Positions 1-62,342 of a stretch of 64,000 nucleotides of DNA are shown here, piece by piece. The position numbers and the translations under genes were made by a program. Below the pieces are notes generated by a model that did no database searches, was not told the origin of the DNA, and worked only from the letters and a program-made list of their open reading frames with translations. Numbering within the stretch: the first letter of the stretch is position 1; each line of letters starts with the position of its first letter. The DNA comes from Tetradesmus obliquus (lineage: Eukaryota > Chlorophyta > Chlorophyceae > Sphaeropleales > Scenedesmaceae), in NCBI GenBank assembly GCA_030272155.1, contig CP126205.1:4204501-4268500 (forward strand), written 5' to 3'.

Positions 1-375
1 CTCTGGCAGGCGCAGCAGCAGCGCGGCAGCCAGCTCTTGCAGCAATTGCTGCTGCAGCAGCTGCTGCTGCTGGGCCAGGCTGTAGCCCGGCACACTGGCA
101 AAGCCCTGCACAGGTAGCCAGGCACAGTAGCGGCACCACAAGAATAACTCTAGTTGTGTGTGTGCTTTGGGATGGCTGTGCAACTGCAGACAGGTGCAGC
201 AGATGCTGCTGCTGCTGTGCTGCTGCTGGCAGTTTACTGCCTAGTGTACGTCATTGTCAGCTGTCAAGTGCTGATGCATGATGCAAGCAGTAGGGGTAGC
301 TGCATGGTATCAACAGTAGCACTACAACACTCAGACACAGTGCTGTGTGACGCCTCATTTGCAGCACTGCACAAT

Positions 376-421
<46 letters not shown>

Positions 422-2863: not shown

Positions 2864-5800
2864 GGGAGGCGTCAGCCGCCACGGCACCCAGGTGGACACA
2901 CCTTGCGGCTCGAATGCCTCAAGCAGATGTGGCAGCAGCAGCAGCAGCAGCAGGGGGACTGTCAGCGGAGCAGAGAGAAGTCTGTTAGCAGAAAAGTCCG
3001 CTACCAGGGGACCCACTAGACAAGCGTCAGCGCCTGCTCAGCCACAACACCGCACACCGAATCAGCAAAAATCGCGGCGGCACGCACTATCGAATCACTT
3101 GTACAGCTTCAACAGCAGCTGACAGCTGCCCCACAGCATCCAGCACAGCAGCAGCAGCCCCAGGTGGTGTGCTGCTGCCGCCTGCTGCCTGCCTGCACAC
3201 ACAGCATTCACTGTGAACTTCAGGGGGTCGTAGCTCAGATGGTAGAGCGCTCGCTTAGCATGCGAGAGGTAGGGGGATCGATACCCTCCGACTCCACAAT
3301 ATTATTTTTCCGCACTCGTCAATTGCTTTTTCGCCCGCTCACCTTCACCAGGAGGTCCGGCGGCGTCGTTTCCAGTGCAGCCAGGCCCTGCAGCAGCTGC
3401 ACGCTGCGCCGCGGGCTCAGCAGCACGGGCCACACGTCACCAAACAGGGCAAGGCTGTTGGCCATGAAGCACTCCACCTGCAGCAGCACACGAAGTGGTA
3501 AACACGAAGCCTGTTGCCTTGGAGCAAAGGCTTGCCAATGACTGGAAGCGAGGGCCACACGTCACCAAACAGGGCAAGGCTGCTGGCCATAAAGCATTCC
3601 ACCTGCAGCAGCACGCAAAGCAAATTCAAGATCAAGCCTGGGGCATGTTGCATGCAGCATTGACAAACTGCTACTGCAGGCTGCAACCCTCACCTGCAGC
3701 CCAGCCATGCCCAGCGCCCACAGCATGACAGCAGCATCGCCGGCAGCCACGCACAGCTCAGCCGGCTGGCAGCTGAAGGACTCCGGCACACCATAGAACA
3801 CACGCGCGCCGACAGCTGCACTGGTGCTGCTGCTGCTACTGCTGCTACTCCTGCTGCCGCGGTGGCCAGTTGACCTTGCGCTGCTCCCATGCCTGCCGCC
3901 GTTCAAGGCCTTCTGAGCTTGCTGCTGCTGCTGTTGCCGTGATGCCGATGCTGATGACTGGAAGCCTCCCCTGGTAACACTGGGGCTGGCTTTCTTGCCT
4001 GCTGCTGGTGCTGCTGCTGCTGCTGCTGCCGCGGTTCTGCTTTGGATATCACTGGCAGCATCAGCAGCCAGCATCTGCTGCAGCAGCAGCTGCTGCTGCT
4101 GGAGCTGCCGCCGCTGCTGCAACAGCTCTGCCAGCAACTGCGCAGCTGCAGCAGCATCAGCAGCATCAGCTGAAGGGCTCTGCTGGCTGCCTGATGTGCC
4201 GGGTGCTGCAGCGCTGCTGCTTGCAGGAGTCAAGCCTGCAGCAGGTGGCCCAGCCGCAGCTGCTGCTGCCGCCGTGCTGTCAATGGCATCATCAAGATCT
4301 GCGATATCCTCTGCCAGCGTCTGCAGGGCTGCTTGGGCTTCCTGTTTGAGCGCTGCTGCGATTTCTTCCCGCACTTCCGCAGGCACTCCCGGCTGGCCGC
4401 CGCTGCGCTGACTCAGCAGCGCCAGCAGCAGGGCCTCGCCTGCAGGAAAAGGGCGCGAAAGGGCGGGAAGATCGGAATTCAAAAAGTCGGCCCCGCGCCA
4501 TTCAGCAGCGCGGTGACAAGCTACTGGCGAACGGCAAGCAGAAGGAAGGTGAAAATGCGCGATTCATAACGACACCATGGCAAGAAAGTAAGGTGTTAGC
4601 CTGTTCCCCTCGACCGGATTCGAACCAGTGACCTAGAGATGCCTTTGGTATGACCACTACAGTCTCCCGCTCTGCCAACTGAGCTACAGGGGGGAACGGC
4701 AGGCAGCGGATTGCGCCTGACCAGATGGCAGAGCAGCAGCGGTGCCCTAGTGTTGACCTGCCACTAGACAATTTTGCTGCTGCCCCGGCGCGCCTCAGCC
4801 AGATCTGCATATTGAAGAAAAAGCAGCCTGCTGACCGCCTGAGGAGTGCGGCGTAAGCACCAGCACAGCCAGCACCCTGTGCAGGCAGCTGGCGTGCTGT
4901 TAAATGTAACCCCGCTGTCTTGAACCTCGGACAATCTACATCATATAGTGGAGCTTCATCCTCAGTGTTGAAACCTCAGCATGTGTGTTCGATTACGGCA
5001 ACCCCCCCATGACTGTTGAGCGTGCTGGACTGCTGGCCCAGTGTCTAGAGGTGCTCAGCTGTTCACTCAGCAGTGCTGCAGCGTGCCTGCAGCAGATTTC
5101 TAGACAACAGCTGGGCCAGTGGATTGCCTGCCATCAAGGTTGTCTGGGTGTTGTATTCTACTTGATTTTTCATCTGCTGTGCGTAGGGAGCAGCAATGTG
5201 CTGGCATTCATATTGCTGCACTCACATCAGCCGGTTGTCAACTGCGTTGCTGGTCTGGCAGCTACCTGGGGCGGTGGTGGTGCCCTTGCTTGTGGTGAAA
5301 GTGTAGCCATGCGGTGGAGTTGCTGCATGTAGTCAGCGGTAGGAGTGGTTTTTTTGTTTTTTGTAGGTCGGCTTAGCTAGTTGCAGCGGTAGGAGTGGTT
5401 TTCTTTTTGCTTGGATGTAGTGCAGCCTAGTGCTTGTCATGCAGCAACAGCAGTGTGGTGTTGCAGCCAGGTCTCTGTCAGTGTTGCTTGCATGCTCTAT
5501 CATGCTATGCGCTTGCATGCTTGCTTGCCATGCCATGCTGTCCCTTGGAGGCGACCACTCGGTTTTGCTGCAGCATTGTGGTCATTTTGCTAGGCGGGCA
5601 GTGAGGCTGCAGACTTGCTGTTCCGTCGAAATGGTGGTGGGGGACGGAGTTGGACTTGCAACCCTACCTGGCTGGTATGACACGCCAGTTCAAGAGGCTG
5701 GAATTGCCTGGCCCCCATGTGTAACATACACTAACTAGCACTGCACTATCTAGCACTGCACACCGTGGAACCCCCTCTTCTTATGCTTGCTTAGCAACAC

Positions 5801-12456: not shown

Positions 12457-14179
12457 ATGGGCAAAACGGACCCACCACCTCGTAAGCGGCAAAAAGCGGG
12501 AGAGGACGAGGCGCAGGCGCAGCAGGAGGTGCGCGGTGACCGGCCTGGAGGCAGTGCTGTGCCTGGCTGGCCTGGTCAACGACAGCTCGCTTATAATCGG
12601 TCAAATATTTGAAAAACAAAGGCTAAAATCTAGCATCGAACCATGCGATTTGCAGGACACGGACACGTCTCAGCTGGCCGCAACAGATGAGGCCGCAGCA
12701 GCAGCAGCTTCCACCCCAGCCGGCCGCAAGGCTCCCCGTGGCCCCAGGGCAGCCGCAGAGCAGCCAGCAGCAGCAGGGGACGCCTCAGGGCAGCAGCAGC
12801 CGCAGCAGCGGGGCCGCAAGGGCTCGCGAAGGCAGGGCGGCGGCGGCACAACCAGCGCAGCAGCAGCGGCAGCAGATTTGGCTGGCGATCCTGCAGGCAA
12901 GCCTGGGGCTGCCTTCCAGCCTCGTGACAGGCGCTTTACTGCAGACAGCGACACCATCATGGAGGCCGTGGTCAAGGTGCGGCTGTTTGTGTGTGTTGGT
13001 GTGGGCAATAGCTATATGGTGCAGGGTTGTGCAAGCAGTGAGCACATCACAGCACGGCACAGCATGCAGACGTGTCACAGGGATGTAGCAGCAGACAGCG
13101 ACACCATCATTGAGACTGTGGTCATGGTGTGTTGTTTGTGTTGTTGGTGTTCTGTGCATGTGTGTAGGCAGCAGTCTCGACAGCCCTGCTGCTGCGTGCA
13201 GGGCTTGCAGCAGCGCAGCACAGCACAGCACGCAGCAGTGAGCAGCTCAGTTCAGCACAGCGCAGCACAGCATGCAGCAGTGCCAGCGACCTGCCAGCTC
13301 AGCCTGAGATGGTGTAGTCGAACAGTCAAAAGCAACAGTTGTTATGACCTTTGCAGCAGAGCGAACATATGTAGCTTTGCTTGCACGGTGCGTCCGCAGC
13401 AGGCCGGCAGCAGCCATGCAACCATCAGCACAGCACAGCACAGCAGAGACCAGCACAGCACAGCACAGCGCAGACCAGCACAGCACAGCGCACTCGAGCA
13501 ATGCCGCAGCCTCAGCAGGCTCCAGCAGCAGCGGTCAGTGCCATAAACGCGGCATGGCGCCGCGCACCAGCGCAGGCTTGCAGGAAAGTGACTGTGGGCT
13601 TGCAAATAGCAGCTTGCTGGAAGCTGATCCGGCAGCGGCAGTGGCAGCATGGCCGGGTGACAGCGTATGTTGCGAGCCATCTGCTGATGCTGCTGCTGCT
13701 GCTGCTGCCGCCGCTGCTGCTGCTACTTCTATATATGCAGGTGTTCTGCATCCACACTGAGCCCAACTTCAGCCTGCCGTGGCAGCGCAAGCGGCAGTAC
13801 AGCAGCAACAGCAGCGGCTTCATGATCAGCGGGCGGCGCATCCTCACCAACGCGCACTGCGTGGACCACCACACACAGGTGTGGTTGTGGCAGATATACA
13901 ATAGATAGATTGGACTGTGCATATAGTAGTGTCACAGCACATGTATGTATCGCACTGCAGTGTGGCTGCAGTGACTGCGCTGCAGTGGCAGCTGCACAGC
14001 GTCCTCAGCAACGCGCACTGCGTGGAGCACCACACGCAGGTGCGGTTGTGGCAGCAGTGAAGTCAGGTGGAGGGTGGCCTTTGCAGCATACCCTCTGCAT
14101 CAGCCTCAATTAAGTGATTTGGTTAATCGTTCGCAGCAGGTGACTGGGCCCTATGGCTGTGCCTTCTCTCATACCTTTC

Positions 14180-14229
<50 letters not shown>

Positions 14230-14835
14230 ATCGCTGCCCTGTGCAGGTCAAGGTCAAGCGGCGTGGCAGCGACAAGAAGTTTGTGGCCTCAGTGCTGGCA
14301 GTGGGCACTGAATGCGACATAGGTGCGTGGAGGTGGTGGGAATGCTACGCGTTTCTGGAACCATGGCAGTGGCTGTTTAGCAGACAGTAGCTGGCAACAC
14401 GGCAGTGTGCCAGGCACGCTGTCAGGCGCCTGCAACACACCCGTTGTCATCAGTAGAAACAGTCAACTGATTCTGCTGCCTAGACTGACCACGCTGTGCA
14501 TTGGAAGCTACACCAAACGTCCCCCTGCCCCCTCACACGCACATTCTCTACCTTGCACTCCTGCCCCGTGCTGCAGCCATGCTGACTGTGGACGATGACG
14601 CCTTCTGGGAGGGTGTGGAGCCGGTGGTGTTTGGCAGCCTGCCGCAGCTGCAGGTGCGGGCGGCAGCAGCAGCAGCAGCAGTGTTTTGTAGTGCAGATGC
14701 AGCAGCAGTAGCAGCAGCAGCACAGGTGTGGGAGTGGAGCCACTGGTGTCTAGAAGTGTATCACAGCTGCAGGTGACTGGCAGCAGCAGCAGAGACAGCA
14801 GCAATGTGCAGCAGCAGCAGGTGGACAGTGTGAAA

Positions 14836-14866
<31 letters not shown>

Positions 14867-17800
14867 TTGTGCTGCAGATCTGCAGCAGAACCGGCAGCAT
14901 GCGAGGTGTAGATGGACACAGGTTAACAACAAACGCATGTTTCCAAAATGTTGTTTTGACACTGCAGGACGCGGTGACGGTGGTGGGCTACCCGATCGGC
15001 GGTGACACCATGAGCGTCACCAGAGCATGTCACGAGTGTGTGCTGCCCCCTGCCTTTCTTGCAGGACGCGGTGACGGTGGTGGGCTACCCCATTGGCGGT
15101 GACACCATGAGTGTCACCAGTGGCGTGGTGAGCCGCATCGAGGTCACCAGCTACGTGCACGGCGCGGCAGAGCTGCTGGGCATACAGATTGACGCAGCGG
15201 TGAGCAGTTTTGGGTTGATTTGTGACTAACACCCAGGGTTCTAGGGTTTTCAGTTATCATTACCTAAGTGCAATGGTGAGCCGCATCGAGGTCACCAGCT
15301 ACGTGCACGGCGCGGCGGAGCTGCTGGGCATACAGATCAACGCAGCAGTGAGGTTTGTTTAAGGGTTTTGGGGTTTCTAGGGGCTATGGTCTCAAGGTTC
15401 AGGGCCTGTGCGACTATCTCTATTGTCACAGACCATGGCGCGGCTGCTGGGCATCCAGATCAACGCGGCGGTGAGTGTCGGCAGTGACAGCAATGATATT
15501 CCGCAAAAGCTGTGCGATAGGTCTATGGCTCAATTTGCTGCGCCCTCAACATGGGCAAGCTAGCAGGTAGCGATGCCAGCAGTTGCTCGTTCGTGCAGCT
15601 GACTCTGCGGAACGGCTTCTTGTCTGCAGACAGCCTCTGCCCTGTCCTGCACATTTCTGGTCTTAGACCTTGTGTTCAAACTGTTGTGGCTCATACCATC
15701 CAAGATGGTGCCAGGACCCACATGTAACTATCCTCTCTCTCAAAGTGCGAACCTGTCTTACACTCGAGTGTGGTGTGTGTTTTTCGCAGATCAACAGCGG
15801 CAACAGCGGCGGCCCCGCCTTCAACAGCAGCGGGCGCTGCATCGGCATCGCCTTCCAGAGCTTGAAGCACGAGGACGCGGAGAACATCGGGTACATCATA
15901 CCAGAGCCGGTGATTGCGCACTTTATCAACGACTACGAGCGCAACGGTGAGGGTTTAGGGTCGAAGGGGTTGAAAGGGTTCAGGTTTGGGTTTATATGCT
16001 GTGTTTGGGATCAGGAAAACATTGGCTACATCATCCCAGAGCCAGTGATCGCGCACTTCATCAGCGACTACGAGCGCAACGGTGAGGGTCCAGGGTTTCA
16101 AGGCTTTCGTTTGTGATTGATGCCGTGTTTTAGCTGCGCAGAACATTGGATACATCATCTTGGAGCCAGCCATTGCGCACTTCATCAATGACTACGAGCG
16201 CAACGGTGAGGGTTCAGGGGTTGAATGGGTGAAGAATGGGTTTACATGCTGTGTTTCAGCTGCGGAGAACATCGGCTGCATCATCCCGAAGCCCGTGATT
16301 GCGCACTTCATCAATGGTTATCAGCGCAGCGGTAAGGGTTTGGGTTTGAAAGTTTAGTGTTTGACTGATGCCTTGTGTCACCGTGTGTGTGGGATGCGGA
16401 GAACATCGGCTACATCATCCCGTTCTGTGTTACATCTTGCCGCACACTTCTACACGCGCTTCCCCTGCCTACAGCGCACCCGCCCTGTCTTGGCACCGCC
16501 TGTCTGACGCATGTCTGCTTTTCCGTGTTGCTCTTGCTGCCTCTTTGCTGCCTCATTCTGCCCCGCAGGCTCCTACACGGGCTTCCCCTGCCTACAGCGC
16601 ACCCCGCCTGTCCTGGCACCACCTGTCTCACACATGTCTGTCATTGTGTTCTCTTTTGTGTTGCCTCTTGCCGCCCCGCAGGCTCCTACACGGGCTTCCC
16701 CTGCCTACAGCACACCCCGCCTGTTCCATAGCACTGCCTGTCTCACATGTGTCTGCTTTTCCGTGTTGCTCTTGCTGCCTCTTTGCTGCCTCTTTGCTGC
16801 CCCCAGGCGGCTACACGGGATTCCCCTGCCTGTCGTTGTTCGCTATGGTGCTACACATGGGCCGTGGCTGCTTTCTGATCCTTTTCCCGCTGTGCTGTTC
16901 CACTTCTTGTTGCCGCAGGCGGCTACACTGGCTTCCCCTGCCTGGGCGTGGAGTGGCAGAAGCTGGAGAACCCTGACATGCGCAAGGCGCTGAAAATGAA
17001 GGTGCGCTGCGCGTGAAAATGTTGTCACTTTGCGTGTGTTGGGTGGCAGCGGCAGAAGCTGGAGAACCCCGACATGCGCAAGGCGCTCAAGATGAAGGTG
17101 CGGCACGTGTGCTGGGTGACTATGTGTGTGCTGGGTGGCAGCGGCGGAAGCTGGAGAACCCCGACATGCGCACAGCACTCAAGATGAAGGTGCGGCACAG
17201 GCAGCAGTCCCTGGTTTTGCATGTGCTGGGTGGGTATGTGTTGGGTGGCAGTGCAGAAGCTGGATAACCCTGACATGCGCAAGGCGCTCAAGATGAAGGT
17301 GCGGCACGGGCAGCTCATATGACCATATTGCTGCCATTGGGGTGTGGGCTGGGCAGCAGCAGCTGCAGATGGCTAGCAGCAGGTTGCGCGATGTGTTGCA
17401 GATCTTGATCTCTTGGCCATGTTTTACAGGGGATTGGGATGTGTTTCTTTCTGAACCCCAGTAGCAGGGCTGCGGGTGAGGTAGTGGTTTGACTGCTGGC
17501 AAGCCAGCCACGCCTCACCCGAAGCATTGCTGCTGCAGATGTACTGCTTGTTTGCTGTTTCAAGCATGCATGCGGATGCTGCTAGCGGCTAGCAATCAGC
17601 ATCACGTGTTCTTACAGTGCGCAGCAAACATTGCACTCATCCCTTGCACCACTGTGTTTCCCTTGCTGAAAATGGCGGCCTCGTCAACAGATCACATGGT
17701 AGCATGATGGTAGCATCGTCATCCTGCTCTCACACCAGTCGTATGCTTTGCAGCCGCACCACAAGCGCGTGCTGGTGCGCCAGTGAAGCCCGCCGCCCCC

Positions 17801-18734
17801 GCCCATCTGGGGGACAGTGAACTGATTGTGGATCTGCTGCTGCTGCTGCTGTTACTGTATCCTGCAGCCGCACCACAAGGGCGTGCTGGTGCGCCGCGTG
17901 GAGCCCACGGCCCCCGCCCACGCAGCCGTTGCCGCGTACGACATCCTGCTGTCGTTTGACGGCGTGGACATCAGCAATGACGGCACAGTGCCGTTCCGCA
18001 GCGGCGAGCGCATCAGCTTCAGCTACCTGGTGTCACAGGTGCGTCATTGTTGACTAAATAACATGTTATGATCAGGCATGTGTTGTCGTTTGACGGCGTG
18101 AACATCAGCAATGACGGCACGGTGCCGTTCCGCAGCGGCGAGCGCATCAGCTTCAGCTACCTGGTGTCACAGGTGTGTTATTATCAATTTAACAACATGT
18201 TATGATCAGGCTTGTGTTGTCGTTTGACGGCGTGGACATATCAAATGACGGCACGGTGCCTTTTAGGAGCGGCGAGCGCATCAGCTTCAGCTACCTGGTG
18301 TCTTAGGTGTCTTATCATCAATTACATAACATGTTATGATCAGGCATGTGTTGTTGTTTGGCGGTGTGGAAGTAAGCAACGATAGACGGTGCCGTTTAGG
18401 AGCGGCGAGCGCATCAGCTGCAGCTGCAGGCACCTGGCGTCACAGGTGCGTCATTGTTGTGGTTTTGTTGAGATTGTAGCGCGTCAGATGCAGAACCGCA
18501 TGTTTTGGCTCAATCCCTATGTCAACCATGCAATATTGGAAGGTATGAGTGCTTCACACATCTTGATTGGTGGTGCTGGCTCTGCTGTTGAAATGGTAGC
18601 TGTGATGCTGCTGCTGCTGCCGCAGATGTACACCAATGAGGAGGCTGTGCCGCGCCTGGTGTACCTCCTAGCATGGCTGCCCATCGCGTTCACTCACACT
18701 GTTACACGGTCACTCACATTGTTGAGCGCTTGCG

Positions 18735-18818: not shown

Positions 18819-21800
18819 AGAAGTACACCAACGAGGAGGCTGTGCTGCGGCTGCTGAAGGACGGCAAGGAGGTGACCGCCAGCGTCAGCCTGGCAGCACC
18901 AGTCAAGCTCATCCCCTTCCACATCAAGGGCGCGCCACCCAGGTACGGGTTTCATTAAGGGGTTTCGCAACTCCATGCCAGGCACAGGCCTGGCATGTGT
19001 GGCTGGTTTGTGGTGGCGAATGCATTGTGTGAGCCTGGCTGCACCACAACAAGGGTGCACCACCCAGGTGGGGAAGGCATTTAGTTCACGTCCACTCACT
19101 GTGAGGACAGCATGCTTCTGGCATGCGGTGTGTATCGTGTTGTGCGACCTGGTGAAGCTGACAGTTTTTTGACAGTTTGTGTACATATCTTACAGTGTGG
19201 TGGGTCTGTGGTAGGTCGTTTTGTGGGTAAATGCCAGCGTCAGCATGGCAGCACCATTGAAGCTCATCCCCTTCCACATCAAGGGCGCACCACCAAGGTG
19301 GGCATGTGTGCTGTTTGTTTGTGTGTTTGAAAGCTGTCTGGAAAGCGGTGCGTTCCGTGTTAAGTGATGAATGTGGTATTGCACGGAAGCTAGCAGCACC
19401 ATTTTTGAACTCTGCCCTTCCATTGATGGCTCTGCGCTGCTCAAATGGGGCAGTTGGAGTTTGAAGCATGCTTGTGTTGTGGTGACCGCAGCGTCAGCCT
19501 TGCTGCACCAGCCAAACTGATCCCCTTTCACATCAAGGGCGCGCTACTCAGGTATGGGTTTTGCAAACTCCACGCCAGACACAGGCCTGCCATGTGTGGC
19601 TGGTTTGTGGTGGCGAATGCATTGTGTGAGCCTGGCTGCACCACAACAAGGGTGCAGCACCCAGGTGGGAAAGGCGTTTAGTTCACGTCCACTCACTCTG
19701 AGGATAGCATGCTTCTGGCATGTGGTGTGTATCGTGTTGTGCGACCTGGTGAAGCTGACAGTTTTTGAACTTTGTGTACATATCTTGCAGTGTGGTGGGT
19801 CTGTGGTAGGTCGTTTTGTGGGTACATGCCAGCGTCAGCATGGCTGCGCCGGTCAAGCTCATCCCCTTCCACATCAAGGGCGCACCACCAAGGTGGGCAC
19901 ATCTGTATGACATCAGCAACTATTAGTACAAGAAGAGTGCCTGACGTGTGTGTTGTGTGTTTTGTTGTTGTGATGGTGTGATCTGGCCAAGCTGGCTTTT
20001 TGGTGACACCTTATGCTTTTTCGTTGTCACGGGTGTTGTGCTTGCGGGTGGACTGCTGCAGCTGGCAGCACCAGTCACACCCAACCCTTTCCACATCAAG
20101 GGTGCGCCACCCATGTGTTGGTTTTCCTTGCCACCTTCATTCATTATTTCATTCTGAACAATGTCTCCAAGTCACTGACACTGCTGCTGCTGCTGCTTCG
20201 GCGTTCACTCTGCTGCAGCTACTTCATTGTGGCGGGGCTGGTGTTCACTCCAGCCACCGTGCCCTACATGCGCAGCGAGTACGGCAAGGAGTACGACTTC
20301 GACGCGCCGGTGAGGATGGTTTTAGGGTTTAGGGGTTGACATGCTCATGTTCTCTTTGTTTCAAGGATCTCATGTGTGTACATGTTGCTCAATGCTCACA
20401 TGGTCACATGCAGAGAAGCTGGTGCTTCTCACTCTTTCCCCCCTGCTGCTAAGACTGCTGCTGCTGCTGCTGCTTTTTCCCATCAGGTGAAGCTGTTGCA
20501 CAAGTTGATGCACCACATGGCTCAAGCCAGCTGTCAGCTGCTAACACCGTTGCTGCCGCCTATGCTGCCACTGCTGTTTCCCCTTTCCACCCTGCTGCTG
20601 CTGCTGCAGGTGAAGCTGCTGGACAAGTTGATGCACCACATGGCTGAGCAGCCGCGGCAGCAGGTGGTGCTGCTGAGCCAGGTGCTGGCGGCTGAGGTCA
20701 ACATAGGCTACGAGGAGATGCTCAACACACAGGTGGGTGGGGTTTAGGAGCGTCATGTCTTGGGGTTTAGGTCCCAGTGTCTTGGGGCAACAAGCCAGGG
20801 CCAAGGTGCTGCTGAGCCAGGTGCTGGCGGCTGGGGTAAACCGTGGAGATGCTCAACACGCAGGTAGGGTTCAGGAGCGTTGTGGATTGGGTCTTAGGTC
20901 GTATGCTGTGGTTTGGGGTTTTGTGCGCATTTGCTGCTTGCCATGTGCCAACCAGAGGAGCCAACACACGCAACAAGACAAGGGCGTTGCTTCATTATGG
21001 CAGTAGTGGTCGCATTCAGCATCACTCGCAGCATATGTAGCTGACACCCTGGCTCACATCATGCGTGACTGTGCTGCAAGCCCATGCCTTGCCCAAAATG
21101 CCGACAAACCAACTTCATAGCACACAGCTGCCCACTCCTGCTGCTGCTGCTGCTGCTGCTGCTTCAGGTGGTGGCGCTGAATGGCGTCAAGGTGGTGGAC
21201 ATGCGCCACCTGGTGTCATTGAATGGCCACCTCAAACTGCTGCTGCTGCTGCTGCTGCTGCTGCTATTGCTGCTGCTGCTGACGTTGCTGCTGCTGCTGT
21301 AGGTGGTGGCGCTGAATGGCGTCAAGGTGGTAGACATGCGCCACCTGGTGTCACTTGTTGACGGCTGCAGCGATGAGTACCTGCACTTTGACCTGGACTA
21401 CAACCAGAAGGTGTGCTGCGGTTCAGGTTCTGTACAGCTAGGTTGTAGAATTGATGTGGTTTTGAGTCTGTGGACATGCGCCACCTGGTGTCGCTTGTTG
21501 ACGGCTGCAGCGAAGAGTACCTGCACTTCGACCTGGACTACAACCAGAAGGTGCGCAAAAGGGTCAGGTGTCAGGGTTTTTGTTCGGGGGGGTTGGGTTG
21601 ACATGCAGCACCTGGTCTTTATATGTTGACGGCTGCAGCGAGGAGAACTTGCACTTCGACCTGGACCACAACCAGAAGGTGACCAGGGTTCAAAAAATTT
21701 ACAGCTAGGTTTTAGGATTGATGTGGTGAGGGGTCTGGGATGTAGCGCCACCTGGTGTCACTCGTGGACGGCAGCAGCGAGGAATGCTTGCATTACGACT

Positions 21801-22051
21801 TGGACTACAACCAGAACGTGACCAGGGCTCAGGTTTTTTACAGCTAGGTTTTATTGTTGATGTGGCTTTGGGTCTGGGCTGTTAGCGCCACCTGGTGTTG
21901 CTGGTGGACGGCTGCAGCGAGGAAACCTGCACTGACCTGGAGGACAATCAGCAGGTGCGTCGGGTTTGATTGGTCCAGAGATGGAAACTGCACTGGGGTT
22001 TAGCCTCATTGTGGTCTGCCTGACATCCAGCAATGTGTTATGCACGTGCTA

Positions 22052-22086: not shown

Positions 22087-22158
22087 AGGTGGTGCTGGCC
22101 ACAGCACACGCCAAGGCAGCCACGCAGGAGATCCTGGCCATGCACTGCTGCCAACAAC

Positions 22159-45557: not shown

Positions 45558-45595
<38 letters not shown>

Positions 45596-46182: not shown

Positions 46183-46215
<33 letters not shown>

Positions 46216-47669
46216 CACAGGTTGGTGCTCAGGGCTGCTGCAGTCCTTGGGCAGCTTCAGAAACGCCCACACGAATCCTAAACCAAACCCTAAACATCAA
46301 CCGCCACTAACGCTATGCCCGGCAGCAGGACGCACGGCAACAGCACACGTGGTGGCAGCACCTTGCTTGTGGGCGCCTCCTGGCTCCCGGCTGCAGCCAA
46401 ACACAGCTGCTGCAAAGCAGAAGGTGCTTCAACCTGAACCCTGCCGTGTCACAGGATCCAGCCATCAGCACAAACCCTAAAAATCCCTAAAAAAAAAGGC
46501 AGCAGCTCTCATTTTGCACAGGTTGCCGTGCAGACGATCCTGGGCGAGGGGCACGCCCTTGCTGCCCAACCCGCACTGCCTCATTCCACATGCAGATGCA
46601 TCAAGATGAGCCTCGCTCTCACTTTCACCTCGGAGCAGTAGGTGTCCGTGCAGAAGCGCTTGGGTGAGGGGTACGCCCTTGCTGCCCAACCCGCACTTCG
46701 AGTTCTGTTTACATACGTATATGAGTCAACATGAGCCTCACCCTCGAGTTAGAGCAGTAGGTGCCCGTGCAGAAGGTCCTGCACACAGGGCATGTCCTTG
46801 CTACCCAACCTGCACTTCCAGTCCTGTTTACACACGCATATGCGTGGAGACGAGCCTCACCTCGGAGCAGTAGGTGTCCGTGCAGAAGGTCCGGCGCACA
46901 GGGCATACCCTTACTACCTAACCCGGACTGCCTCATTTCACATGCAGATGAGTGGAGATAATGAGCCTCACCTCGGAGCAGTAGGTGTCCGTGCAGAAGC
47001 GCTTGGGTGAGGGGCACACCCTTGGCTGCCCACCGCCACACTTGCCGGCAGTGCATGTGCTGCCCTCCGTACAAAACTTGCCATCTTCGCAGGGAGTGCT
47101 GTCTGGCTTCGGCACCTTGGCACAAGTGCCGCTTGCGGTTTGGCAAACTCCGTTGTTGCATTCGTCGTCCAGATCGCTGCAATCCACGCGGGTGCCTGCA
47201 ACGCAGCTGCCAGCAATGCACGTGTCCACACTGCAGCGGCCCGTGCCGGCAGCATCACAGAGCGTGCCGTCCGGGCGGTCTTCGAATGTGCATTGCTGTG
47301 CTGTCTCATTGCAGAAGGCTTGCTTGCACTGGTTAGCGGGGCTGGGGGGAGGGTCCCGGCAGGGGCGGGCTGAGCCGACGCACGAGCCTTCAACACACAC
47401 GCTGTTGACGGTGCACCTGTGGGCAGCAGCAGCAGCAGCAGCAGCAGCATGGAGGTGCTGACCTGTCAGATCGGCAGCAGCAGTGCTTGTTATGAGCGTG
47501 TGTGAGCTGGTGCTTGCCCCACAACTGCACAGCGCACAAACATCTGTGCTGCGCCGGCATGTGTGTAGGTAGCCCTTACACGCGCACACACCGTTAACAC
47601 AGCCACACCCACCATTGGGCATCATTGCATCTTTCGCCATCGTGGACGTTCTTGGACTCGCAAAGGCCT

Positions 47670-47718
<49 letters not shown>

Positions 47719-48283
47719 TGGTTGGTCAGGGTGTGTTGCTGAAATATAGACATGCTATGCAATGCTGACAAAGCATAAGAGCACAACCTTGGATGGTTTA
47801 ATCGGTTGCACACTCATCTGGAGATAGTCATGCGTACTTGGCAAGATATTGCCAGCTGTGCAACAGGCATTCAACTCATGCTGCTTTGCATGCTTTGCAG
47901 CGTGAGCTTCACTGGACATCCTAAATAACAGCGTGAATCAATGATCTTCACCACTGGAATGCATCACTCAACTTGTCCGCAGAACTTCACAAAGAACAAC
48001 CAGCGCGCGCTTTGCGCTCACCGTTCAGCGGGTTGCAGGAAATTGCCTTGCAGGGGTTTGCAGGAACCGGGCACACCACCGGCGAGCCCTTGCACTTCCC
48101 GGACACGCATGTGTCATTTGCGGTGCACAGCGAGCTGTCGGTGCAGTTTGTGCCATCTGGTGACTCTACTTCCACACAGTCGCCTGTTTGCTCATCGCAC
48201 ACAGACTCCACACACTGCCGGAAGTCTTTGGTGCGCTTGAGGCAGACTTTGGGCTTGCCCGTGCAGATACCCGCCTGGCACCT

Positions 48284-48317
<34 letters not shown>

Positions 48318-49735
48318 ATTTGGTTGTAAGATTTTGGGCTTGCCCGCGCAGATGCCTGCGTGGCACCTGCAGCAGCAGCTGCTGCTTGTTGGTTGACTGC
48401 GCTTTTGGGCAGTATCTGCATGTAGCAGACTGCAGCAGCGCGAGCAACAGCCAGCAGCAGCAGCTGCAGCATGATTGAATTATACAAATGTGTTGCGGCT
48501 CGTACTGGCATGGCAGTGATAAGCAGGATGCGACATCGCTCAGCCGCAATATGCGTCACATAGCATCTTGACTGGTGCCGGTGTCGTCCAATGCGCACAC
48601 ATGAGCCTCCGTCAGCGGATGCAACAGTGTTGCGCGTCGACACCAAGCTGTATTAAAACTGCCTACACAACGTCACTGATTTGTCATGTCTGCTTGTTGC
48701 ATTGCATGTGTGCGTCTGCTGCAGCAGAACGCACGGCACAAAAGCACCTCACTCACTTGTCGTCTGTGGTGCAGCGGCGCCTGTCATCGCAGGCAGTGCC
48801 GTTCGCGTCGATGATGAGCGTGCAGTTCTTCTTGTCAGAGCTGAGCACGTAGTGCTGCATGAAGGGAATGCATGCAACGAAGCAAGCAGCAGTGGTATGG
48901 CGTCAGCAGCGGTGAGGCGTCAGTGAGAGTTGACAGGGCAGGCAATGCCCAGCTGTCACAGAGCACACCGCAGGCCACACACACAACGCCAAAAGAGCAT
49001 GGAGGGGCTCAACCCTAACCCTAAACCTTAAACAAACCCTACACCCTGAACCCTAAAACAAGAGCATGGTGTGGAGTGCTCACTTGGCAGGGGTCTGGGT
49101 GGATGGCACGCCCATCACCAGACACTCCAAGCCACACCCAGACTATGCAATGCAGTCTTTGATGCATCCAATCTGCAGCAGCACTGTGCAATGCAGTCTC
49201 TGATGCATCCACTCTGCAGCAGCACTGTGCAATGCAGTCTCTGATGCATCCAATCTGCAGCAGCACTTGCCTGGCAGGGGTCTGGTTCAACACAGCAGAC
49301 TAGGCCTGGCCCCTGCCAGGCCATTCAAGCCACACTCAGACCAATACGATAGCCACAAGTGCTGTCGCCTGTCGATGCATTCTGCAGCAGCGATCACCTG
49401 GCAGGGGTCTGGGTTGATGGGGCAGCTGAGATCTGGCTGCTACGAGACATTTCCAAACGAAGTTCAAACAGTACAACTGATATCTCTCATGCATTTAAAG
49501 TGCAGCAGCGCCCACCTGGCAGGGGTCTGGGTCGACTGGGCAGATCACCTCTGGCGAGCAGGTGCAGCTGCCGTCGTTGCTGCAGGTGCCTGTGCAGTTG
49601 TTTGGCCCTGTGCAGGGCGTCGTGTTGGGCTTGGGCACGCCGTAGCATTCGCCGTTGCTGGGGTCGCACGCGCCAAGCATGCACTGGCTGTCGGGGCACG
49701 TTTTGGGTGTGGACTTGCACTCATTGGTCAGCTGG

Positions 49736-49775
<40 letters not shown>

Positions 49776-50318
49776 GAAGGAGGATCAGACCCAACCCTTC
49801 ATAGCTGATCTGACTGACGCAGCTATCATGAGTATGCAAGCCCAGTGTACTGCCTTGCAGCATCATGCTGCACCGCTACGCACGGCATGCAAGCAAAGCT
49901 TCGCTGGCCTCCCAACAGTTGGCTCTTGCTAGAGTCCGATTCCAATCCAGTCCAAACCATTCCAATCCAATTCCAAACCAATCCAATCCAATTCCAGGTA
50001 CCTGCATCAGCAGGCTGCACAAGCTGCGTCGTGCTGCTGTGTGTCCGCCATGCATCAGCAGTTGCAGACCTGCTTTGAACGATAGCAGCTGCTAGCAGCG
50101 TGAGGGTGATGTGAGAGAACCCCATTGCCGTGAGCGAAACACAGTGGGACACAGTGGGACACAGTCCGACATAGTGGGACACAGTGGGACACAGTGGGAC
50201 ACAGCTGCAGTCTGCGACGTGTTACCGCCTCACCTCATTGCAGACCGCGGGCTCGCACTTATTGGTGGTCGTGCAATTCCTGAGCTTGCCACCTGTGCAG
50301 AGCCCTGCCTTACACACT

Positions 50319-50353
<35 letters not shown>

Positions 50354-53191
50354 TGACACAGCTCAGAACTGCTGATGTTCAGGACGCGCACGACCCCGGC
50401 TGCAGTCAAATGGTAGCAAAAGCAATACCTGCCATGCAGCCATGTGCCGCGGCTGCTGCCTGACACATAAGCAGATTTGAGGGTAACTCAAATCTGCTTG
50501 AGTGAACTTGTGCAGCATTGGCCATCACCCAGGGGCTGATGCTGCTTGAAGTTGACAGTTGCATGCAAAACAGCTAGATCATATCACCAGGCTGGTTTTC
50601 CGATGAGTGATGCAATGAGGGCAGCAAAACCTGATGTAAACATCAGCCAGAGTGAACTCAAAACTCATGCCAAGACCTGAGCGTGGCAGCTCACCTGTGT
50701 TGATGGTGCAGAGAGACAGAGATAGAGGGGTTACATGGTGTGTTCATGCGGCATACGCCACCACAGACACCTGGTAAAAATGCCACCACAGACACCTGGT
50801 AAAATAGGAAGCTGCAAGCAGCGTGGCAGCTCACCTGTGTCGATGGTGCAGAACTTGCCATCATTGCAAGGCAGCGTCTCGTTCACATTGGCGGCAAAGC
50901 ACTCGCCATCCACGGCCCTGCAGCGGCCCTCAGTGCAGGGGCCGTTGAGGCGCGAGCAGTCCTTGGTCTGCACGATGTCGCAGGTGTCGGTTGCCTCGTT
51001 GCAGGACAGCGTCTGGCACTTGTCGGTGGAATTGCACACACGGGGGCTGCAGCGCAGCAAGCAAGAAGCGGTCAGCAGGAATGGTGGCAGTGGGCTGGCT
51101 TGTTATCACACGACTCTGCCGGTCAGGCTAGAGCCTCTGTTCAGCACGACTTGCAGAGTGCTGCACGATGCTTCAGGATGCTTGTTTCCAGCAATGCTTG
51201 ATACACGCTTCTCGCCTGCTGCAGCGCAGCTCTAACCAAGGCACGGGACACATTATCCTGGCAGCTGGGGTGCATGGCGACACGCAAGGACAGCTGCAGG
51301 CAGGCAGCTGGTGACCCCATCCAGCTGCAACACACAACAAATTTCAAACAGAAAGTAACATACAAAGTAACACACCGCACAGCGGCTCACCTGCCACCGC
51401 CGCAGATCCCGTTGCTGCAGACCTGGTTGACAATGCAGAACAGCCCAGGCGTGGTGCAGGGGATGGGACCTCCCAGGGATTGCCTTGGGCGCTTGACGCA
51501 CCTGGCAGCGGCAGCAGGCACACACGCATGCACGTCTTGACACTGGTTTTGTCAATGACGAGATTACAATCCAAGCACGCAAGGCCTGTCCCAAATGATT
51601 TCAGGGACAACATACAACAAGGGTTGGTGCAGCGGAAGCGAAGGCTTAGGAACCGGCAGGAGCAGCAGCAGCAGCAGCAGCAGCGCTGACTCCCAGATGG
51701 CAGCACCGCACTCGTCCTTATTGCAGCCGTCACTGCATCCGCTGCAGTCCAGCTGCGGCCCCGACACACGATCCAGGGCTGACGAGCTGCGGTTCAGGCC
51801 TCAACAGCAGACGCTACAGTAAAGGTTTCCAGCACAGTTGGTCACTGATGTCTGTGTTTCAGCAGTTTGTACTAGGGTCTAGGGTTTGCAGGGTCTGTAC
51901 TCACTTGCCGGTATCGGGGTCACACTCTCGCTCATTGCAGTCGTCACTCAGGCTGCTGCTGCAGTCCATGTCCTCCCCCAGCCGCACACCCTAACATAGG
52001 CTTGATCAGCAGAACTGAAGTCGGGGTTAAGCAGCAGTACTTACTTATTGGTGTTGGGGCCGCACTCATACCCATTGCAGTTGCCACTAAACCGCTGCTG
52101 TCGAGTCACAGCCCGCCACGCACTCTAGGGTTTATGAACAGTGTCAAGGAGCTCTAGGGTCTTATGGATTTGAACAGTGCAGCAGCAGAGCTGTACTCAC
52201 TTGCCGGTATCGGGGTCACACTCGCCCTCATTGCAGTCGTCACTCAAGTTGCTGCAGTCCATGTCCTCCCCCGCCACGCACTGCCCATTGACACACTTGT
52301 CGCTCCTGCACAGCCCCGCACTGCCGCCGCCGATGGTGCAGCTGCTGTTGTCAGGCTTGTTCTTGTTCACGCAGCCGCCATTGATTGGGTCACAGGCGCT
52401 GATCTGGCACTGATTGCTGGGCGCTGGGCAGACGATTGGTGTGCCGATGCAGCTGCCGCCGGAGCAGGTGTCTTGATTGGTGCACTTGTTGCCATCGTCA
52501 CAGCTGGCACCTAGTGGCAGCAGCAGCAGCAGATGTTATTAGGTTAGTGGTGGGCAGGTGATTGATTTGCCAATGCAGCTGCCGCCGCAGCTGGTGCCTT
52601 GGTTAGTGCATGTGTTGCCGTCATTGCAGGCGGCGCCTGTGGTCGCAAGTGGCAGCGTGGAAAGTGGGCACAGAGACTCTGCGTGCTGACGTGTCTGCAA
52701 CAGGCATGACGTGTGCCCAATGCATGTGGGGCACGTGGCATTGCATGTGGGGCACATGGCATTGCATGTAGGGCACATGGCATTGCATGTGGGGCACATG
52801 GCATTGCATGTGGGGCACGTGGCAACCCCGACAGGTGCCGCCGCCGGAACAATTGGAAGCTGGCAAATAGCTAAGCCAAGGCTGTCACTCATAGGGGGTG
52901 CCACCACAGGAAACCCACTTTGTTTGACATTTCAAAGCTGCAAAGCATCTTCGTTTCCATCGCATCATTCCACCCAGCAAGAGTATCGGATTCTTCCACC
53001 CAGCAAGAGTATTGCATCATTCCACCCAGCAAGAGTACGCATTGCATCAGACAATCCATAGTCTCACCGTCCTTGGGGGTCGGGTCCTTCTCGCACAGCC
53101 CGCTGCTAAAGCTGCACACACCCGCATTGCACTGGTCGGCAGCACCGCTGCAGTCCTTGGGAAGGTCGAGGCACGACCGCAGCGCCTGCAT

Positions 53192-57924: not shown

Positions 57925-59119
57925 GGACGATGGAGTCAGCAGCTGGTTGAGTCCGACTTTGTTGGTGCAGTCAGCATGGCTGCAGCATTGCTGCAAAAGC
58001 AACAAATACAACTGAGCTGGCATGCCAATGAGTTTTACATGCACTTGCATGCATTGGCTGAGCACGCACATCACAGCACTGCTGCAGAGCATAAAAAGGC
58101 AGCATGCAGAGTAGGCTGATGATCGCAACGTGCTGATTGCTGCTGTATGTTGCCACACACAGCTCAATGCAGCTGCAATGTTCTCAACAAGCACGCAAAC
58201 CTAAATTATCCATAAAATCCCCAACCCTAAACCCCACTCGCTTGTCCACCACAATGCTGCACTGGCCGATGGTGAGGTCACACAAACTCACACTTCTTGC
58301 AGGGGCTGCAAACAGATATACAAAACCCTAGCCCCTAAACCACACACTCTGCAGCCTTAACCCCACTCAATTGTCCACCACAATGGTGCAGTTGCCAGTG
58401 GTGAGGTCACACTCGTACTTCTTGCAAGCATCAGGGTGCTTGGGGCAGGCGGTGGGGCTGCAACCAGGGTACACAAAACCCTAGCCCCTTAACCAAACAC
58501 AGAAACCCTGAAGCCTGAACCCCACTCACTTGTCCACCACAATGGTGCAGTTGCCAGTGGTGAGGTCACATTCAAACTTTTTGCAAGCACTTGGGTGCTT
58601 GGGGCAGGTGGGCGGGCACTTGATGGCTGGTTTGCAGATGCCCTCCTCACAGCTGCCCCCGGGACCTGCGGGGTTTTATAATTGCCAAAGGATGTGGTTT
58701 AGTGACTGTGGATGTAGCTGTTTTGTATGTTGTGCAAGTTGCGTGTTGCTGAACCTGCTGCCTGCCGGTTGTAGGGCGTGCATCACGACAGCTGCTGGCG
58801 GCAATGCCTTGTGCAGCACACTTCAACTCGTGGGCAGGTAGCACCTGCTGCGTTGCTGCGCTGAAGCTGCTGCTGCCTGTGCTTGCATGGGCTGTGCTTG
58901 CATGGGCTGTGCTTGCATGGGCTGTGCTTGCATGGGCTGTGCTTGCAGGGGCTGTGCTTGCAGGGGCTGTGCTTGCATGGGCTGTGCTTGCAGGGGCTGT
59001 GCTTGCATGGGCTGTGCTTGCATGGGCTGTGCGCAGCCATCACCTGCCAGCAACAATCTGCAGAAGCCACCTACGCTCTGCGCAGCTGCTGGCGCTGTTT
59101 GTATTGCTGACCATATGGC

Positions 59120-60912: not shown

Positions 60913-60947
<35 letters not shown>

Positions 60948-62342
60948 CCTGCATTGATGCAGTGTTGCAGTGTGCGGCAGAATTTCACAACAGACAGCAA
61001 AAGGGTGCGTCAGTCAGGGTTGTGTATTGTGACTGGGTAGTAAGCTGATGCTGCTGCGGCGGCGGCTGCTTCCTGCAGTGATGCAGTGTGTGGCGGCATG
61101 CAGCGAGAGACAGCAAGGAGGGCGGGTCAGTCAGGGTTGTGTATTGTGGCTAAAGTAGTAGGCTGCAGGGCTGGTGGCTGCAGCTGCTGCTGGCTCCTCA
61201 GCATCCTGCAGGGGCAGAATTTGGGTGCATGGATTGTAAATTTGAAGGGTTGGGTGGGTGGGTTGTTAGCGAGACAGTGGGGTCTTTGCGGTGAGTAGGT
61301 GTGGGGTGGATGTGTACATGCACAGCAGGGAACAAGAGAGGGAGCTGCACTAGCCAAGGCTTGATAAAGCATGTGTAGTAATGGGTGTGGTGGGTGGATG
61401 GGTGACACGGCTGGTTGCTGATGTGGCTTGCTGCTGCGGCAGTATTGCGGCATCTGCAATAGCATTCAAAAAGGATGCCAGGGCAACAGCAATCTACATG
61501 CGTTCTGTGCAGTGCAGTGGCTGCATGAGTGTGTATGTGTGAATGCAGGGTGAACGGTGCGGGCTCGCAATTGGGCGGTGGTCGCATCGCAATAGCATGC
61601 ATGTCAATGTGTGCGGTACAGACTGCAGCAGCACTGGGACACAGGTCCACCGCGCTGCAGCAGTGTCGTTTGAAGAAAACAGCAAGTTGCTAATCAGCTC
61701 AGCACTGAATTGAATGTTGAATTTGTGGATTGATAGCTGCCAGCTGCCTACAGGGTGCTCGGCAATGCACGTCGCTGTGTGTGCAGTACAGACTGCTGCA
61801 GCAGTGGGACACAGGTCACCACGCTGCAGCAGTGGGGGTGTTTCAAGTAGCAACTGTGGATCCGCTCAGCCCTCAATTGGATTTATAAACGGGTGGTGGA
61901 GTGGTAGTTGCCAGCTGCGTACAGGGTGCTTGGCTTTGCAGAATATTGTGCTTTTCTGCCAGGGCTGCAGCAGGCGGTTGCAGCAGCTGCTCTGCAGTGA
62001 CTAGAGTGACACCCCGCTTGTCATGCTGCAGCTCGCCCTTGCTGGCATATCCATACAACTGAGGAGCATACAGGTCCTTCAACGCACTGCCAACGCCGCA
62101 ACAGCGATCATGGGGAACTCTGCTGGAACAGTGCTGTTGTGGTGCACGCACTGGTTACCCAATTTGCTGCGCGTCTGCGTGTGTCATGGTCGCGCACAAC
62201 AAAGAAACGTTTATATGTAAACTTATAAATGGCACAGGTTGCTGGCCACGCCCACCTGTGCTTCTGCGTCTCCAAGGCTCGCCACCACCAGCACGACTAC
62301 CGGCAACAGCCCCATCATTAAGTTATATTTTGGCTTACTCAT
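41686..62342 (-). CDS. Large secreted cysteine-rich (DG-x-x-C repeat) extracellular protein, 34 exons
   Basis: The first exon (62256-62342) encodes a signal peptide (hydrophobic core GLLPVVVLVVASLG, then DAEAQ). Exon 2 starts at 62133; its end (near 61940) is unresolved. From exon 3 (60622-60948) to the TAA at 41686 every junction keeps frame: 59868-60153, 59391-59526, 59218-59234, 58530-58665, 57835-57851, 57447-57582, 57135-57151, 56505-56631, 56191-56281, then ten exons 55757 to 49516, ten matching exons 48854 to 42964, 42233-42469 and 41686-41825. Total about 1,900 aa. The repeats have the form CDDGN-CT-D-C-GxCxGxPxxC, with many N-glycosylation sites (NNTTC, NCT, NGT). This recalls Dictyostelium CTDC-type and other large secreted cysteine-rich proteins; a cell-wall or matrix role is inferred. 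No enzyme or membrane anchor is seen. Confidence 0.86.
42475..42564 (-). repeat. CAG array (sense CTG) before exon 42233-42469
   Basis: About 30 AGC/CAG triplets, broken once by CGGCGG, end six bases from the acceptor of the penultimate exon. It is intronic and acts as the pyrimidine tract. Confidence 0.9.
42615..42895 (-). repeat. Three copies of the exon 42964-43168 end
   Basis: The segment CSSAGTCVWQCIIPPPSE with the GTGAGA/G donor recurs at about 42845-42895, 42715-42765 and 42620-42660, within the next intron. Confidence 0.8.
43700..43905 (-). repeat. Copies of the exon 43991-44202 end
   Basis: The segment RFCTTGTG with GTGAG recurs at about 43875-43905, and more decayed near 43785-43805 and 43700-43730. 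Confidence 0.65.
45600..46265 (-). repeat. Edge copies around exons 45249-45558 and 46055-46172
   Basis: The start of exon 45249-45558 (GASCDDGN) recurs at 45618-45665. The end of exon 46055-46172 (LCKKDPKPKEG plus GTGAGA) recurs near 45943-45985, and its start (FLKLPKDCS) near 46225-46265. Confidence 0.7.
46500..46890 (-). repeat. Four copies of the exon 46972-47416 end
   Basis: The segment RFCTDTYCSE with GTGAGG recurs near 46858-46890, 46742-46790, 46625-46665 and 46515-46550. The 46858 copy keeps TYCSE and an intact donor. Confidence 0.75.
48321..48385 (-). repeat. Copy of the exon 48022-48281 start
   Basis: The segment CQAGICTGKPK recurs as CHAGICAGKPK at about 48325-48370 behind its own CTGCAG acceptor, separated from the parent by a CAG tract. 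Confidence 0.75.
49081..49420 (-). repeat. Four copies of the exon 49516-49731 end
   Basis: The segment (I/V)CPVDPDPCQ with the GTG donor recurs near 49395-49430, 49265-49290 and 49082-49105. A nested 48-bp tandem repeat (ATGCATCCAATCTGCAGCAG) lies at 49145-49265. Confidence 0.75.
49936..49997. repeat. Short CCAATC-type tandem repeat
   Basis: Imperfect units of CCAATCCAATTCCAAA in the intron before exon 49516-49731. Confidence 0.7.
50141..50200. repeat. 10-bp tandem repeat, six units
   Basis: Six units of ACAGTGGGAC; the third and fourth differ by one to two bases. Intronic in the cysteine-rich gene. Confidence 0.9.
51690..52090 (-). repeat. Copies of the exon 52201-52510 end
   Basis: The segment DCSNLSDDCNEGECDPDTGK with GTGAGT recurs at 51900-51972. 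More decayed copies lie at 52035-52095 (NGYECGPNTNK) and 51700-51760 (SGCSDGCNKDECG). Confidence 0.75.
52555..52640 (-). repeat. Copy of the exon 52201-52510 start
   Basis: GAACNDGNTCTNQGTSCGG at about 52560-52638 parallels GASCDDGNKCTNQDTCSGG. It has an acceptor but no donor at its end, so it is read as an acceptor-side copy, not a coding exon. Confidence 0.7.
52720..52824. repeat. 21-bp minisatellite, five units
   Basis: Five exact-length units of TTGCATGTGGGGCACATGGC plus A, with one or two substitutions each, in the intron after exon 53068-53185. A single similar unit occurs near 54675-54692. Confidence 0.95.
53220..53400 (-). repeat. Two copies of the exon 53068-53185 start
   Basis: ACLNLPKDCSGA and ACLKLPKRCSS recur at about 53225-53285 and 53350-53400, each followed upstream by a CAG array (53189-53226 and 53305-53347). 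Confidence 0.8.
54097..54182 (-). repeat. Mixed CAG/CGG triplet tract before exon 53653-54097
   Basis: About 80 bp of GCAGCAGCGGCGG-type triplets end at the acceptor of exon 53653-54097. It is the only CGG-rich member of the acceptor-side tracts here. Confidence 0.85.
56285..56359 (-). repeat. (CAG)25 array (sense CTG) directly before an acceptor
   Basis: Twenty-five uninterrupted triplets abut the acceptor of exon 56191-56281, one of the longest pure arrays in the window. Confidence 0.95.
57135..57151 (-). other. 17-nt microexon (PNNST)
   Basis: GCCAAACAACAGCACAT between AG and GTGAGC. It completes Lys (AA|G) and starts Cys (T|GC), so it adds PNNST. Siblings lie at 57835-57851 and 59218-59234. 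Confidence 0.85.
57835..57851 (-). other. 17-nt microexon (PDNTT)
   Basis: GCCTGACAATACAACAT between AG and GTGAGT, with the same phases as its siblings. In exon 59868-60153 the same KPDNT-C stretch is fused to a larger exon. Confidence 0.85.
58240..58465 (-). repeat. Two copies of the exon 58530-58665 end
   Basis: The segment CDLTTGNCTIVVDK with its GTGAGT donor recurs at about 58372-58463 and, shorter, at 58243-58310. Each is followed by a TTTAGGG-like motif. Confidence 0.8.
58877..59026. repeat. 15-bp minisatellite, ten units
   Basis: Ten head-to-tail units of CTGTGCTTGCATGGG; three carry CAGGGG in place of CATGGG. It lies in the intron between exons 59218-59234 and 58530-58665 and is open in all frames because the unit is a multiple of three. 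Confidence 0.97.
59218..59234 (-). other. 17-nt microexon (PNNTT)
   Basis: GCCCAACAACACCACAT between AG and GTGAGG. It carries an N-glycosylation sequon, as its siblings do. Confidence 0.85.
60190..60515 (-). repeat. Copies of the exon 60622-60948 end
   Basis: GGGPATCPAHTEECLQ with a GTGAGC donor lies at 60470-60525. A more decayed form (SPAHTEQCIL) lies at 60190-60240. Confidence 0.75.
61020..61880 (-). repeat. Copies of exon 3 start and of a segment near exon 2
   Basis: EPAAAAATSPAAYY behind a CCTGCAG acceptor lies at 61150-61205, and a shorter copy at 61030-61080; the parent is the start of exon 60622-60948. A second family (DLCP-AAAVCTAH) lies at about 61580-61655 and 61765-61820. Confidence 0.65.

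Follow-up and report, generated by a model that had tools for sequence, protein, structure and literature searches.

The question raised by this locus is how the introns of a gene may come to hold repeated partial copies of the very exons that flank them. The window, by which is meant the whole 64-kb stretch of Tetradesmus obliquus DNA that was analysed, lies on contig C15 (CP126205.1) of a genome of 104.7 Mb in 17 contigs, within which all further searches were made, and it carries a gene for a DEG9 protease whose introns contain such copies. The GC content, the CTG/CAG-rich acceptors and the plant-like DEG9 are in keeping with a green alga. The term 'echo' is used here for a copy of a flanking exon edge that lies inside an intron and is found by alignment of the exon against the intron. 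From among the genes in which a first-pass annotation had described these copies, DEG9 was studied in full, together with one exon on the minus strand of the window. It is probable, though far from assured, that the echoes are the remnants of recurrent direct duplications across exon–intron borders, in which the outermost splice site is the one that is used.

The DEG9 gene was modelled by hand over window positions 12457-22429, such that all donors are GT, all acceptors are AG and the exons join into a single open frame of 633 amino acids. Residues 126-587 of the product align with residues 99-560 of Arabidopsis Deg9 (5il9), 462 residues against 462 with zero gaps, at 2.7e-221. An exon copy retained in the protein would show as an insertion and none is seen, and therefore the aligned part of the protein holds no exon copy. 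With all copies skipped the frame is intact, which agrees with the first reading of the sequence, and the copies are presumably spliced out. Exon-versus-intron alignment gives 28 echoes across 11 of the 13 introns (introns 1 and 4 being those in which this alignment found none), 22 of which are on the donor side and six on the acceptor side (Table 1), and both the number of affected introns and the donor/acceptor polarity reported earlier are thereby confirmed. The alignment scores range from 45 to 169, against at most 32 for shuffled introns. Donor-side echoes copy the end of the upstream exon with its GT kept, and acceptor-side echoes copy the start of the downstream exon with its AG kept. 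Moreover, 21 of the 22 donor-side copies come within 4 nucleotides (nt) of the exon edge, the exception being the truncated copy at 16392, and all six acceptor-side copies start no more than 2 nt from the exon start. As a query against the genome the exon 7 array matched its own place only, this being the sole array so queried, and spacers were not searched genome-wide.

Table 1. Coordinates (window positions) of the DEG9 gene, of its echoes and of the minus-strand echo array.
Feature	Position	Strand	Remarks
DEG9 protease gene, exons 1-7 of 14	12457-12528, 12656-12976, 13741-13878, 14247-14322, 14577-14653, 15065-15199, 15790-15946	+	
DEG9 protease gene, exons 8-14 of 14	16919-17001, 17868-18038, 18821-18942, 20219-20309, 20610-20732, 21303-21410, 22202-22429	+	
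Donor echo, exon 2	13091..13126	+	exon-vs-intron alignment
Donor echo, exon 3	13999..14039	+	exon-vs-intron alignment
Acceptor echo, exon 6	14968..15023	+	53/56 identical; upstream intron seems unrelated past TGCAG
Donor echo, exon 6	15274..15347	+	70/73; shorter second copy farther on, 15437-15470
Four donor echoes, exon 7	16014-16081, 16136-16205, 16262-16331, 16392-16421 (truncated)	+	period ~125; span 16014..16421
Short acceptor-type copies, exon 8 start	16563..16832	+	self-comparison only; outside the 28
Three donor echoes, exon 8	17043..17298	+	exon-vs-intron alignment
Acceptor echo, exon 9	17754..17805	+	exon-vs-intron alignment
Three donor echoes, exon 9	18081..18445	+	period 134; first two with homologous intron parts
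Acceptor echo, exon 10	18628..18661	+	exon-vs-intron alignment
Four donor echoes, exon 10	19233-19297, 19481-19551, 19828-19892, 20062-20113	+	610-nt duplication included; span 19233..20113
Acceptor echo, exon 12	20487..20522	+	exon-vs-intron alignment
Donor echo, exon 12	20805..20863	+	exon-vs-intron alignment
Acceptor echo, exon 13	21168..21218	+	50/51
Four donor echoes, exon 13	21470..21954	+	exon-vs-intron alignment
Acceptor echo, exon 14	22089..22148	+	60/60; unit 113 nt
Donor-echo array	46520..47043	-	exon end 46972; copies end 46861, ~46744, 46629; period ~120

Beyond DEG9, the echo phenomenon is widespread yet uneven across genes. The minus-strand exon of the window shows a donor-echo pattern like that of DEG9, and the window as a whole contains 145 pairs of local direct repeats of at least 30 nt, covering 14.9 kb; inverted pairs of at least 30 nt were sought in it by self-comparison and none was found. 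The same survey was made of 10-kb stretches chosen by position on contigs 1-10, of which 19 were readable and were used (the twentieth, locus L005, consists entirely of N and was left out). These hold 155 direct pairs against 11 inverted ones and 66 repeat clusters, with direct repeats in 17 of the 19, such that window and loci combined give 300 direct and 11 inverted pairs. For the polarity, four Pfam families (Cpn60/TCP1, kinesin, tRNA-synt_1 and HSP70) were searched exon by exon through the genome, and 13 genes with seemingly overlapping matches were taken as the sample (for kinesin, among the matches listed). The donor/acceptor polarity is present at the protein level also, in Cpn60/CCT, kinesin, class-I tRNA synthetase and HSP70 genes on many contigs. 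The 67 overlapping match pairs comprise 30 of near-equal and 37 of unequal length; 32 of the latter are oriented as predicted (11 of donor type, in which the longer copy lies upstream, and 21 of acceptor type, in which it lies downstream), two are reversed, one of these between two echoes, and three are neither. Three of the 32 share a single composite match (C16:4180597), in which a truncated donor echo passes into an acceptor echo, and are discounted for that reason; of the 34 unequal pairs that remain usable, 29 are as predicted and two reversed, pairs from one array not being independent.

In five genes that all have visible echoes (DEG9, two HSP70 and two CCT), donor echoes stand at 22 of 43 donors (23 before one ending 10 nt short was dropped), and 13 of the 27 acceptors that could be defined have an acceptor echo. 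Of the 27 introns in a sample of six kinesin genes, two have arrays, in each case at an exon start; this sample is biased low because it was chosen, among the matches listed, from genes with no protein-level overlap. These frequencies do not support the earlier wording in which most introns carry copies as a genome-wide rule. Introns with donor echoes are longer than those without (median 787 against 300 nt), a few of them possibly hiding an unmatched exon.

The repeat unit is of rather constant size. Spacings of repeat pairs have a main peak at 100-140 nt and lesser peaks near 240 and 350, and the unit itself measures 142 +/- 26 nt on the donor side (35 of 42 measured echoes, those below 220 nt, with the seven of at least 220 nt excluded from the mean) and 137 +/- 21 nt on the acceptor side (18 of 18), two donor echoes and one acceptor echo having been too short for measurement. 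The mean exon part is 59 nt in donor and 62 nt in acceptor echoes, with mean spacers of 83 and 75 nt, respectively. Since exon part and spacer are negatively correlated in length (-0.41 donor, -0.60 acceptor) and their unit is fairly constant, a unit of set size falling randomly across the border is favoured.

The arrays also prefer exon edges. A set of 61 introns from eleven genes (five chosen for echoes), whose flanking exons all follow on without a gap in protein coordinates, has 41 arrays, of which 19 are at a donor edge, 19 at an acceptor edge and three within the intron only. Uniform placement of 140-nt units on introns of ~270 nt would, by arithmetic, make about one third (~13 of 41) intron-only, an expectation which ignores the faster decay of purely intronic pairs. 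A further 11 introns contain profile-skipped residues, where an exon is perhaps missing, and have 10 of 21 arrays off the known edges, a count that is not interpretable. One 36-nt pair that joins two introns in kinesin locus L031 was dropped. A home-made gene finder applied to window and loci gave a weaker preference: predicted exons are touched by 82% of the 212 pairs of repeats, as compared with 62% at random, the finder having labelled echoes as exons. Counts of boundary motifs made without gene models, in two runs, gave a weak donor signal and, in the second run, no acceptor signal.

Echoes decay largely as non-coding sequence. This follows from the five genes, in which 58 of 131 echo-unique changes (44%) are synonymous and 73 non-synonymous, against 32 of 34 synonymous (94%) among exon-unique changes, and from frameshifting indels, 13 of 14 DEG9 echo indels not being multiples of three. 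A codon-phase test over 142 pairs returned 0.51, where 0.47 is uniform and 0.52 the value of a neutral-echo model. Codon-constrained echoes were considered and rejected: the pooled third-position count of 61% was inflated, one exon change having been counted once per echo, and a first split of 22/33/34 over the codon positions, with some unaligned columns, gave way to a cleaner five-gene split of the echo-unique changes of 22/40/69 at positions 1/2/3, which is non-uniform. The decay with distance that had been described at first holds for several donor arrays and fails for acceptor arrays. As a separate observation, in a CCT acceptor echo (L024:1271-1339 against 1396-1464) 13 of 23 codons differ by eye, with three amino acids changed, which looks as if both copies had long been coding and misfits free decay.

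The explanation proposed for these features is that duplications of ~90-200 nt (mean near 140) would straddle the exon–intron border. With a slash at the splice site, e for exon and t for intron, duplication across a donor would leave e/GT-t-e'/GT-t', and duplication across an acceptor t-AG/e'-t-AG/e. The protein is restored only if the first donor is spliced to the last acceptor, and purifying selection would therefore fix the splice choice. The extra exon piece would then turn into intron and be duplicated again in later rounds while the copies decay, such that introns would grow outward from their exons. Duplications inside exons would be purged. Those at the edges, in turn, could not easily be reversed, since any deletion that joins exon to echo would carry echo mutations into the exon, whereas intron-only duplications could be freely deleted. 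Such a ratchet would account for the position of the arrays at exon edges.

The intron part of the echoes bears on this proposal. At z>=4, 23 of 44 donor echoes share homology in this part with some other copy, as do 10 of 19 acceptor echoes, for which CTG runs inflate the z. Under a stricter control, in which the comparison is with the real intron, 18 of the 44 donor echoes score above 98% of unrelated introns; of the 26 below that cut-off, 21 lie above the median of unrelated introns. Tandem duplication across borders, which had been among the origins suggested at the outset, fits best with the mostly direct orientation, the fairly steady unit, the intron homology of about half of the donor echoes and the largely non-coding decay, and is in part supported; what it does not fully explain is a sharp step in identity at the splice site.

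This step, together with several other results, weighs against the duplication proposal. Profiled by ungapped alignment over 44 donor and 19 acceptor echoes (one of each, with an alignment ending at least 10 nt short of the edge, being left out), donor identity ranges mostly from 0.76 to 1.0 over the exon part, with a single position at 0.68, and is ~0.9 at the last exon bases and 1.00 at the GT; it is then 0.86, 0.55, 0.89 and 0.55 at positions +3 to +6, drops to ~0.4 just past +6 (0.34 at +7) and is 0.2-0.55 beyond. In the 19 acceptor echoes the fall past the splice site is present and less sharp. Acceptor intron homology is weaker than the count at z>=4 suggests, with 6 of 19 echoes exceeding 98% of unrelated introns and 10 of the remaining 13 above the median. 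Some exon parts have 95-99% identity beside seemingly unrelated flanks: the HSP_C17 pair 3419/3548 has one synonymous difference in 67 bases, and its flanks seem unrelated, with a score of z 4.0 by one test and at the 27th percentile by another. Likewise, the distal copy in acceptor arrays may keep 90-98% exon identity next to an unrelated flank. Whole-unit duplication with even decay fails to explain such near-identical exon pieces. In addition, 38 of the 212 repeat pairs touch no predicted exon, echo-unique changes are non-uniform over codon positions (p 2.6e-6), and in single-echo arrays 47 of 82 of these changes (57%) are synonymous, above the 40% estimated under free decay (p 0.001). A share of the third-position excess is to be expected, since any change that the exon acquired after the oldest copy had split off looks unique to the echo. 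Together, these results call for an extra process, be it gene conversion, selection on echo sites or bounded copying.

The flanks of the echoes have a composition of their own. In the window and loci combined there are 277 words of the TTTAGGG repeat, about three times the 94 that match the reversed unit. The TTTAGGG words are 2.4-fold denser in repeat clusters (91 in 42.6 kb) than outside (186 in 211 kb), a cluster count that copies within an array inflate; control words number 14 in clusters and 80 outside. Counted after donors on the sense strand only, they average 2.7 per donor with echoes against 0.9 without (p 0.015; 22 and 21 donors), and 2.3 in inner spacers against 1.0 in the flank of the last echo (p 0.056). 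The G-rich tracts, like the CTG runs that precede acceptors, may have served as filler, as splicing enhancers or as places of breakage or stalling, and the causal direction could be either. A DNA-repair habit of the genome behind the echoes, as the first-pass annotation had raised, is no more than plausible, with the telomere-like G-rich and CTG-rich flanks as putative break or stall sites. An exact double TTTAGGG unit lies in a DEG9 intron at window 20321-20334.

Gene conversion from exon to echo, limited by homology, is attractive as the extra process, but by simple reasoning it should homogenise the intron part too. Selection enters if the copies, having arisen by duplication, are functional decoy or backup splice sites whose GT or AG and exon context are maintained, with possible roles in U1 binding, exon definition or unproductive splicing. 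Such sites stay in play because all 44 donor echoes retain the GT (44 of 45 with the dropped one included); only 1 of 33 exon offsets preserves a dinucleotide as often, and the chance of such retention is 4e-5 at the mean exon rate. Moreover, identity at +3 and +5 stands above that at +4, +6 and +7 in the shape of the donor consensus, and in many pairs divergence is lower in the exon part than in the intron part. That mean rate, however, includes the exon's silent changes, and DEG9 rates at codon positions 1 and 2 give by arithmetic ~0.006. The AG, kept in 18 of 19 acceptor echoes (18 of 20 with the dropped one), is not significant (p 0.09) and is equalled by 7 of 34 exon offsets, while the exon parts of echoes contain frameshifts and amino-acid changes and most introns of the kinesin sample are without echoes. 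Selected decoys are, on this evidence, unlikely. A boundary present from birth would instead be set if the copying were itself bounded by the splice site, through templated break-repair insertion or an RNA-linked process that places an exon edge beside a donor-like or acceptor-like site in the intron. The sharp identity step, the exon pieces that are 96-99% identical with seemingly unrelated flanks, the distal flanks that are often unrelated where inner spacers are related, and the density of telomere-like words in clusters are all in keeping with it. Set against these are a unit length steadier than its parts predict, the many homologous intron parts and interior ends at which a GTR motif is no more frequent than the random 21% (9 of 42), a result on which GTR microhomology was rejected as a candidate. 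Copying so bounded appears rather unlikely, and an active DNA process that copies the exon edge with its splice signal, bounded at the junction, the copies then perhaps being decoy sites, is to be regarded as somewhat unlikely.

Two other possibilities have far less in their favour. Alternative or mutually exclusive exons might be seen in the CCT acceptor echo of L024, mostly synonymous by eye, and in the synonymous share of single-echo arrays. Mutually exclusive exons are, however, expected to be intact and coding-constrained, and the copies found are truncated and frameshifted, with more than half of their unique changes (73 of 131) non-synonymous, which makes this very improbable. An artefact of assembly, or of collapsed haplotypes, for which nothing was found to speak, is extremely improbable in view of the graded divergence, the up to six copies at a regular period and the link with splice sites on many contigs.

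Other features of the window may be listed briefly. It contains a tRNA-Ala (agc) on the plus strand at 3224-3297 and a tRNA-Leu (tag) on the minus strand at 4605-4693, a tandem duplication at 35077-35584 (unit 229 nt, 2.2 copies, 97% matches) and a minisatellite at 58877-59032 (15-nt unit, 10.4 copies, 97% matches). The minus strand of ~44000-52000 has, by eye, a seemingly cysteine-rich repetitive coding sequence; Pfam was searched at E 0.01 with four open frames from this region and with three others of the window, and none had a match.

Patch-mediated break repair in rice is said to produce short direct tandem duplications, sometimes with filler, which are alike to those seen here, and reportedly without a tie to splice sites. 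Intron change by tandem duplication is, as a class of mechanism, already known. In the potato RdRp gene a tandem duplication across an intron–exon boundary created a new intron (PMC4974935), and exonic sequence became intronic with splice signals inherited from the parent junction, as is proposed for the present case. That is a single case of a new intron, however, whereas here many introns, apparently enlarged, have copies on both sides that are multiple and polarised. A model of tandem genomic duplication with AGGT, and intron gain in break repair, are described elsewhere (PMC3443670), and cases of intron gain by tandem duplication are described from Drosophila (PMC2891723). The AGGT model is similar in that local duplication and splice-site choice turn exon sequence into intron. 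In the model as it appears there, though, the start of the downstream exon is copied after the donor and the end of the upstream exon before the acceptor; the arrangement of copies here is the reverse, with no new intron position, and duplication of this Rogers type is ruled out by that opposite arrangement, both in DEG9 and in the protein-level polarity. Introners bring genome-wide intron change in diverse eukaryotes as copies of an element over many genes (PMC9860276), whereas each array here copies its own exon. A literature search, with most subscription papers outside it, turned up no genome whose introns hold exon edges in polarised, multiple copies, and this pattern was accordingly not found described.

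The growth of introns and the stability of exon borders are old questions, usually studied through isolated cases. Should the splice-site boundary prove to be there from the birth of a copy, a link would exist between DNA copying and splice signals, for which the same search found no description, and if such a bounded process is true, splicing signals, or splicing itself, would shape where DNA duplicates. There is also a warning for annotation in that gene finders may call echoes exons, as the home-made one did. In one genome with many polarised arrays of varied divergence, mutation, splice-site choice and decay become separately measurable, and the echoes may in this way show how introns grow.

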